DNA from: Aquabacterium olei
Lineage (GTDB): Bacteria > Pseudomonadota > Gammaproteobacteria > Burkholderiales > Burkholderiaceae_C
NCBI RefSeq assembly: GCF_003100395.1
Contig: NZ_CP029210.1
Location: forward strand, 3,826,088-3,890,087
DNA: 64,000 nucleotides
Reading direction: 5' to 3'
The notes below the pieces were generated by a model. It made no database searches and was not told where the DNA came from. It saw nothing but the letters and a program-made list of their open reading frames with translations. The stretch's first letter is position 1; every line of letters begins with the position of its first letter. Below are positions 11,713 to 13,221 of the stretch, piece by piece. The position numbers were made by a program, and so were the translations under genes.

Positions 11713-12897
11713 TTACAGCCCGGCGGCTGCACGCAGTGCAGCCGCTTTGTCTGTCTTCTCCCACGTGAACTCGGGCTCTTCGCGGCCGAAGTGGCCGTAA
11801 GCCGCGGTCTTGGAGTAGATCGGGCGCAGCAGGTCCAGCATCTGGATGATGCCCTTCGGACGCAGGTCGAAAATGCCGCTTTCGGCCACGATCTTCGACA
11901 GCTTGTCGTCAGGGATCACGCCCGTGCCTTCGGTGTAGACCGTGATGTTCATGGGCTGGGCCACGCCGATGGCGTAGGCCACCTGCACCTGGCACTGGCG
12001 AGCCAGGCCGGCGGCCACGATGTTCTTGGCCACGTAACGGGCGGCGTAGGCGGCCGAGCGGTCGACCTTCGACGGGTCCTTGCCCGAGAACGCGCCGCCA
12101 CCGTGCGGGCAGGCACCGCCGTAGGTGTCGACGATGATCTTGCGGCCGGTCAGGCCACAGTCACCCTGCGGGCCCCCGATCACGAAACGGCCGGTCGGGT
12201 TGATCAGGTAGCGGGTCTCCTTGAGCCATTCCTTGGGCAGCACCGGCTTGATGATCTCTTCGATGATGGCCTCGTTGAACTCGGGCTTCATCTTGTCGCC
12301 CAGGCTCCACTCGGGGGCGTGCTGGGTCGACAGCACCACGGTGTCGATGCTGTGCGGCTTGCCGTCCACATAGCGCATCGTCACCTGGCTCTTGGCGTCC
12401 GGGCGCAGGAAGGGCAGGCGGCCATCCTTGCGCAACTGGGCCTGGCGCTCGACCAGACGGTGTGCGTAATAGATGGGCGCGGGCATCAGCTCGGGCGTCT
12501 CGTCGCAGGCGTAGCCGAACATCAGGCCCTGGTCGCCGGCGCCGATGTTCAGGTAGTCGTCCGAAGCATGGTCCACGCCCTGGGCGATGTCGTTCGACTG
12601 CTTGTCGTAGGCCACCAGCACGGCGCAACCCTTGTAGTCGATGCCGTACTCGGTGTTGTCGTAGCCGATGCGCTTGATGGTGTCGCGCGCCACCTGGATG
12701 TAGTCGACGTGGGCGTTGGTGGTGATCTCACCGGCCAGCACGACCAAGCCGGTGTTGCACAGCGTTTCGGCGGCCACGCGGGACTTGGGGTCCTGCTCGA
12801 AGATGGCGTCGAGGATCGCGTCCGAGATCTGGTCGGCGACCTTGTCGGGGTGGCCTTCAGAGACGGATTCGGAAGTGAAGAGGAAATCGTTCGCCAC
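11713..12897 (-). CDS. metK: S-adenosylmethionine synthase
   Basis: MetK forms SAM from ATP and methionine. The 394-residue product begins [20 protein letters not shown] and has the ATP-binding GAGDQG motif and the P-loop-like GGGAFSGKD. Length fits the family. The GTG at 12897-12895 is preferred: CTGGAG lies eight bases upstream and the protein then starts like its homologues; an in-frame ATG at 12957 would add 20 residues of unusual composition. The upstream leader carries a SAM-II-like riboswitch. The 3' end contains a hairpin that may end transcription of the convergent chemoreceptor gene. Confidence 0.97.
11723..11755 (+). terminator. Terminator of the chemoreceptor gene, embedded in the metK 3' end
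   Basis: GCGGCTGCA (11723-11731) and TGCAGCCGC (11737-11745) form a 9-bp perfect stem with a 5-base loop followed by TTTGTCTGTC on the plus strand. It lies about 100 bases after the chemoreceptor stop codon but within the last codons of metK on the other strand. Confidence 0.6.
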
Positions 12898-12987
12898 AGT
12901 GGGTACTCCAGAAGATTGATGACGGGCACTCGGCGTCGCCGAGGCTGTGGAAGTCATGCAAGGTGCGGTTCTTCTGGCAGCGGCGAA

Positions 12988-13043
12988 CGCTTTAGCGGCA
13001 TTTGTGGATCGCCCCGCAAGTTGTCCTGTTAACTCGGCGATGG
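12988..13043 (-). ncRNA. SAM-II-type riboswitch candidate in the metK leader
   Basis: On the minus strand ATCGCC (13041-13036) pairs with GGCGAT (13013-13008) as P1. The loop between reads GAGTTAAC then, after seven bases, CTTGCGG; the 3' side reads CCACAAATGCCGCTAAAGCG. This follows the SAM-II plan: P1, a UU-AA-containing loop ending in CUUGC, then AAAUG-NN-GCUAAA with no length change in the 3' segment relative to the SAM-II RNAs I remember. GGAC in the loop can pair with GUUC just after GCUAAAGC, giving a possible pseudoknot. Deviation: the usual UGAUUU loop start is CGAGUU. The element begins at the expected transcript 5' end. The family represses translation when SAM is abundant, fitting metK. 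Confidence 0.75.
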
Positions 13044-13047
13044 CGCA

Positions 13048-13053
13048 ATTCTA
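13048..13053 (-). promoter_or_regulatory. -10 element of the metK promoter
   Basis: TAGAAT on the minus strand, placing the transcription start near 13041, exactly where the P1 stem of the riboswitch-like leader begins. The -35 position (around 13071-13076) is not a good match to consensus. Confidence 0.5.
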
Positions 13054-13209
13054 GAGGAAGGGCGCTCGCCGTGCTCGCCGCAGCGCCCCGGAAAACGCGC
13101 CAGATGCACCACAGAAGCGGGGTTGTTTTCCGGACCCGCGGGCGCGGAAGGTGCCGGGTTGTCCCGAAGCCGGTGTGCCCGCCGCGGCGGGCGCAGGCGG
13201 GGGACTCCC

Positions 13210-13215
13210 TACAAT
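13210..13215 (+). promoter_or_regulatory. -10 element close to the acyltransferase start
   Basis: TACAAT lies six bases before the ATG at 13222, which would put transcription initiation on or next to the start codon. No ribosome-binding site is visible, so a leaderless transcript is inferred. Confidence 0.5.
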
Positions 13216-13221
13216 CGCCGC

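Follow-up and report, generated by a model that had tools for sequence, protein, structure and literature searches.

A SAM-II-like riboswitch subtype in the metK leaders of Burkholderiales and its proposed role as a translational OFF switch

The window analyzed here (the whole 64,000-nt stretch of Aquabacterium olei DNA) carries the SAM synthetase gene metK at 11713..12897 of the minus strand, identified by its Pfam S-AdoMet_synt domains and beginning with a conserved GTG. An ATG at 12957 would extend metK in frame, and among 29 aligned same-genus relatives an ATG is found at the same place only in L002. The metK leader (12985-13041, minus strand, as are all features below) consists of a P1 hairpin and a P2/P2a pseudoknot with a SAM-II/SAM-V-type core. 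The minus strand from 13044 to 12985 reads GCCATCGCCGAGTTAACAGGACAACTTGCGGGGCGATCCACAAATGCCGCTAAAGCGTTC, and the GTG lies 87 nt downstream. Covariation and the alignment place the 5' strand of P1, AUCGCC (DNA ATCGCC), at 13036..13041, and covariation places its 3' strand, GGCGAU (DNA GGCGAT), at 13008..13013. Between them lie L1, GAGUUAA (DNA GAGTTAA; 13029..13035), the P2a 5' strand GGAC (13023..13026) and the P2 5' strand UUGCGG (13014..13019), with CTTGC inside 13014-13026. L1 is the presumed third strand of a triplex when mapped on the SAM-V contacts described in PMC6061858, and G13033 occupies the SAM-V U8 equivalent. The P2 3' strand CCGCUAAA (12991..12998) includes the UAAA predicted from the pocket mapping to contact SAM; the core AAATGCCGCTAAA has its 3' end at 12991, and the P2a 3' strand GUUC (DNA GTTC) is found at 12985..12988. 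Both P2 strands were assigned by covariation and both P2a strands by partner variants together with covariation. The initial annotation had named P1, a loop with UUAA and CUUGC, the 3' core and GGAC/GUUC, and all of them are present on the minus strand. Its boundary at 12988 cuts off the last three P2a bases.

For the analysis of base pairing, 62 metK sequences (61 distinct) were aligned with a model holding P1 only. Since P2 and P2a were absent from the aligning model, the alignment does not favour them. Standard pairs occupied 97.4 % of the pair cells in P1, P2 and P2a, and 39-47 % when the 3' partners were slid by 1-3 columns. Changes on both sides were observed in 8 of the 15 pairs (five in P1, two in P2 and one in P2a). 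None of 500 shuffles, which ignore kinship, came up to the covariation score or to three other measures; the fifth measure, further pair types, was matched by 62 of 500. The two outer P2 pairs change from G-C to A-U in 16 and 5 sequences, respectively; the four inner P2 pairs are invariant and thus uninformative on pairing. In P2a, GUUC is partnered by GAAC, GAGC or GGAC in all ten cases, and GUC mostly by nGAC. The suspected GGAC/GUUC pseudoknot covaries across families, as do P1 and P2, and the P1 plus P2 pseudoknot topology of SAM-II is present. The link following P1 is at least 18 nt long in 24 of the 62 copies, all 24 of which contain a hairpin of at least 4 bp there. This extra hairpin, missing in the window, sits in the same place as the stem-loop right after P1 in SAM-V (P3, as described in PMC6061858), and is optional in the metK type.

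A MetK search over 61 genomes yielded 30 loci from the same genus as the window, counting the window's own. The motif is nearly unchanged in all 30, more than chance would give, and with six further leaders it was found in 36 of 36 examinable same-genus genomes (37 in the set). G042 (contig edge) and G032 (metK start missing) were left out of the leader check. The 400 nt upstream of metK were also tested in 23 other families of the order, each represented by a single genome; 8 families were positive with E-values of about 1e-11 or lower, and the only other match had an E-value of 2; the element was missing from the metK leader tested in 15 of the 23. Thus, the element is widespread and not universal. 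With a model built from same-genus metK leaders only (R1) and a cut-off of E ≤ 0.1, 304 of the order's 399 genomes had a match somewhere in the genome, of which about 40 could be due to chance; the R1 matches reported with their places were all below 1e-8.

An exact-pattern scan of named genomes, using the motif only, gave at least 120 stretches, of which 80 were listed as loci and examined. Matches came from Cupriavidus, Massilia, Herbaspirillum, Acidovorax, Polaromonas, Roseateles, Bordetella, Achromobacter, Dechloromonas, Accumulibacter and others, and from one Pelagibacteraceae. Among the matches listed, 73 of 80 loci precede metK, one precedes a MATE gene and one a metZ-like gene (Pelagibacteraceae); five were given no gene, four of which have 248 nt or less downstream. 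The link to metK thus came from the motif, in a scan blind to the gene. Of the 80 listed loci, only the Pelagibacteraceae contig (L227), with the GAGTT form ahead of the metZ-like gene, has a title naming a non-Betaproteobacteria group.

Across the phylum, model R2 matched 48 of 398 genomes at E ≤ 1e-4, 28 of them in the order and 20 outside. Seventeen of these 20 were fetched (G491, G703 and G725 were left out); all carry GATTT and none was assigned to metK. One locus outside the order was metZ-like and one metF-like. In another family of the class, the GATTT form is followed by a short ORF of 101-109 aa in all seven loci examined (L174, L178, L179, L181, L183, L186 and L188); the L179 ORF had only a sub-threshold Pfam match, to a methyltransferase domain.

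The relation to SAM-II was examined with Rfam 15. No SAM-class match was found in the metK leader of the window, either at the gathering threshold or up to E = 10, so that by Rfam's own score the leader is not a member of RF00521 (gathering score 36 bits), the family that the initial annotation had proposed as a check; SAM-V (no match at E ≤ 10) and the SAM/SAH riboswitch were likewise not matched. Among 20 other metK loci, none reached the RF00521 gathering score and one scored below it at 21.8 bits; the same 20 had no match to the SAM/SAH riboswitch, and L040, L041, L053 and L055 had no RF00521 match at E ≤ 1. Of 20 non-metK loci, three reached the cut-off and 13 more scored below it, and 0 of 16 further loci reached it, including the metZ-like L182 and L192 and the metX locus L194. 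Non-metK copies, too, thus find this cut-off hard to reach, but metK copies score far lower than these or not at all. The metK-only model R1, applied to the window's own genome, found the metX leader (35.8 bits, E-value 3.1e-7; the next place had 0.85). That leader is recognized by Rfam as SAM_alpha (38.5 bits, cut-off 36) and has a terminator-like hairpin after it. This match to a recognized SAM-II copy of the same genome points to common descent and supports homology of the metK element to SAM-II. The initial observation is confirmed, and its reading as a divergent SAM-II-like element is supported. We consider that the metK leader is a real, conserved and covarying SAM-II-like riboswitch subtype, a candidate by homology that lies below the Rfam score.

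Gene classes were compared in an order sample of 120 hits in 100 sources, namely the window and 99 of the 110 loci L040-L069 and L080-L159 (all but L048, L052, L056, L057, L059, L062, L063, L065, L068, L156 and L157). By tblastn, 62 hits were called metK, 37 MATE, six metZ-like, two metH and one metX; three more fell to two other genes and nine to none. The name metK rests on Pfam, metH and MATE on Pfam for one member each, and the others on tblastn to these. The metX of L069 is homoserine O-succinyltransferase MetX by NCBIfam, and L126 is O-succinylhomoserine sulfhydrylase MetZ. As the metZ reference L142 is a cystathionine gamma-synthase family protein, the six hits are called metZ-like. GAGTT was present in 56 of 62 metK hits, 6 of 37 MATE hits and none of the nine metZ-like, metH and metX hits.

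Pocket positions were mapped from the SAM-V crystal contacts given in PMC6061858, not from a SAM-II structure. On this mapping the equivalents of SAM-V U9, U10, U19, U20, U47, A48, A49 and A50 are invariant in all 62 metK copies, and the SAM pocket appears conserved with mostly G at the U8 equivalent (G in 57 copies and U in 5). In SAM-V, U8 is described as bonding to U47 (PMC6061858). At the A18 equivalent, 59 metK copies have C and 3 have A, and the nine metZ-like, metH and metX hits have U at the U8 equivalent. The changed GAGUU loop and the metK target, which the initial annotation took as marks of a divergent subtype, are real marks of it, with the qualification that GAGUU is not strict, U being present at the changed base in 5 of 62 metK copies.

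Two SAM-II-like aptamers in tandem were seen ahead of the MATE efflux gene in 17 of 20 MATE loci (L082, L087, L090, L096, L111, L113, L114, L117, L124, L127, L131, L143, L145, L147, L148, L150 and L159). In most cases the first looks like an ordinary SAM-II, sometimes with a terminator, and the second resembles the metK type. It would be unexpected for SAM to control a MATE exporter. Small ORFs lie right after SAM-II-like aptamers at L113:316-618, L148:299-643 and L185:1277-1471; the first two precede the MATE gene, and neither the L113 nor the L185 ORF matched a Pfam family. At L042:1384-1563, a recognized SAM-II (36.9 bits) and a GAGTT type stand in tandem, followed by a 154-aa protein without a Pfam match.

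For the expression platform, 171 of 240 pattern matches had a MetK start. Removal of duplicates left 164, and in 155 of these the start was 55 nt or more away. A TANNNT box ending 3-9 nt ahead of P1 was present in 134 of 163 metK leaders, and in 19, 9, 3 and 7 of the 163 in equal-width windows further upstream. In the window this is the -10-like TAGAAT at 13048..13053, 6 nt ahead of P1; a full sigma-70 consensus had no match in 12850-13220. The position of the box suggests that the aptamer is probably at the 5' end of the mRNA.

Pairing between the 32 nt that follow the aptamer and the ribosome-binding region of the same leader has a mean energy of -16.0 kcal/mol, compared with -11.8 kcal/mol for swapped regions (155 leaders). 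None of 10000 permutations was as low, and these ignore relatedness in leader sets that contain relatives (29 of the same genus). In L094, for example, CUUCAGACUCCAA pairs with UUGGAGUCUGAAG. In the window, CCAGAAGA pairs with UCUUCUGG at -15.0 kcal/mol, which ranks 17th of 155 for its tail. The anti-Shine-Dalgarno segment CCAGAAGA is at 12970..12977, and its complement UCUUCUGGAG, with the Shine-Dalgarno GGAG included, at 12906..12915. An antisequestor, formed by GCG plus the next 8 nt with the region between, had a mean of -13.4 kcal/mol in the 155 leaders, whereas shuffles gave -9.8 and swaps -12.1. It was below its own shuffle mean in 143 of 155 leaders, and below all 60 shuffles in only 30 of 155. 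Its 5' strand in the window is GCGUUCGCCG (12981..12990), which overlaps P2a, and its 3' strand is CGGCGACGC (12933..12941). Both the tail-to-RBS and the antisequestor pairings are lineage-specific. With the overlap of the antisequestor strand and P2a, this supports a translational OFF switch by antisequestor exclusion. Equilibrium folding of the 155 leaders showed no switch: the probability of an unpaired SD was 0.215 when the aptamer 3' strand was locked and 0.216 when it was free. The model therefore depends on kinetic, co-transcriptional folding. Two further candidates were dropped: a leader peptide, as the ATG in ACAAATGCC is lost in relatives (e.g. L008, L013 and L022), and a CGUUCGCC/GGCGAACG pairing at the metK start in computed folds, which is not kept in L015, L023 and L024 among others.

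The metK leader is thus likely to be a translational SAM OFF switch of a new SAM-II subtype, in which we infer SAM as the ligand, the transcript start, the switch direction and the kinetic nature. Transcription of metK would begin no more than a few bases from P1, and the leader would fold co-transcriptionally into an H-type pseudoknot of the SAM-II/SAM-V kind. By analogy with SAM-V as described in PMC6061858, SAM would stack into P2; the adenine would lie on U12994, the sulfonium at the U13018:A12993.U13032 triple and the aminoacyl end on A12991. Bound SAM would hold GCUAAAGCGUUC in P2/P2a and so keep GCGUUCGCCG from pairing with CGGCGACGC; CCAGAAGA would then pair with UCUUCUGGAG, hiding the ribosome-binding site and switching translation off. 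If no SAM is bound, the antisequestor would form first and metK would be translated. Probably, metK is in this way under feedback by SAM, the product of its own enzyme. Counted against this reading were the G at the U8 equivalent, the failure to score with RF00521 and the 15 families with a metK leader lacking the element.

It is rather unlikely that the same aptamer binds SAM with an output other than occlusion of the ribosome-binding site, such as Rho-dependent or weak intrinsic termination, while the tail pairing merely keeps the ribosome site at a low constant level. In computed folds the SD does lie in a helix, both with the aptamer strand free and with it locked, and a lax test for terminator-like hairpins was passed by 24 of 164 metK leaders (15 of 37 MATE and 9 of 9 metZ-like, metH and metX hits). 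However, no terminator-like site was found in 12850-13220 of the window, and the lineage-specific pairings, with an antisequestor that uses the aptamer 3' strand, argue for control at the ribosome site.

The prevalence of G at the U8 equivalent in metK copies, where the metZ-like, metH and metX hits have U, could instead mean that the metK subtype senses a ligand other than SAM through the same fold. A precedent is the SAM-I variant at metK for which PMC10853860 describes spermidine as the ligand. We regard this as quite improbable, since the remaining mapped pocket residues are invariant, including the sulfonium triple, and the metK product makes SAM. Moreover, U is kept in a few metK copies and G occurs in 6 of 37 MATE hits, so that the two bases seem interchangeable. 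A ligand-free leader structure, conserved for protein binding or RNase protection, is very improbable; nothing specific was found in its favour, and the pocket-level match to the SAM-V contacts and the homology to recognized SAM-II both speak against it.

Like SAM-II (RF00521), the metK element has a P1 hairpin, pairing between the P1 loop and the 3' tail, and a core of GAnUU, UUGC and GCUAAA. It differs from SAM-II in its target, in the third base of GAnUU (G rather than U for most copies), in covarying outer P2 pairs, in a P2a of GAC/GUC or GRAC/GUUC and in ribosome-site pairing rather than a terminator. Translational control has a SAM-II precedent at metA of Sinorhizobium meliloti (PMC9373788). 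SAM-V, described from marine alphaproteobacteria and Bacteroidetes (PMC6061858), shares the H-type pseudoknot, the proposed translational control and the pocket residues, and differs at the U8 and A18 equivalents. The SAM/SAH riboswitch of Rhodobacterales is also described as a pseudoknot ahead of metK (PMC2864571; PMC7367207), but that is a different order and its Rfam model had no match at the metK loci tested. A 2007 paper noted terminator-linked SAM-II in alpha- and betaproteobacteria (PMC2258182), and a 2022 paper tandem SAM-II, in some cases with a terminator first and ribosome-site control second (PMC9481103). The metXZ element of betaproteobacteria described by Leyn et al. 2014 (PMC4239095), a pseudoknot leader with a terminator, has metX/metZ and not metK as its target; judging from the descriptions, it probably corresponds to the SAM-II copies found here. 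For the 5'UTRs of metK, metX and metZ in B. thailandensis, a footnote of a 2022 fluoride riboswitch paper (PMC8814607) mentions suspected regulatory elements confirmed in unpublished data, and for metK this footnote gives no class, structure, ligand or mechanism. In the open-licence PMC literature consulted, no class, structure or mechanism was found for a metK SAM-II-like element. A metK element was thus already suspected in B. thailandensis.

If this assignment is correct, it would provide a class and a mechanism for SAM synthetase regulation in some of the Burkholderiales. PMC4239095 states this gap, and in the literature seen it has since only been hinted at in the PMC8814607 footnote. As the current Rfam model does not call the metK copies tested, annotation would miss them. 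The natural U-to-G pocket variant, together with terminator-linked and ribosome-site versions of one aptamer, would make ligand recognition and the evolution of expression platforms directly testable. As a speculation, one SAM pseudoknot may have evolved into two branches in the order, a terminator-linked one (metX, metZ-like and metH) and a ribosome-site one with a mostly-G pocket (metK), stacked in tandem before MATE; the U-to-G change might then adjust the SAM set-point, or the ligand, to whether SAM-related compounds are made, used or exported.

A different element, the SAH riboswitch RF01057, was also found in the window at 157-249 on the minus strand (59.6 bits). L055 and L098 also carry an SAH riboswitch, a short way downstream of metK and on the strand of that gene.
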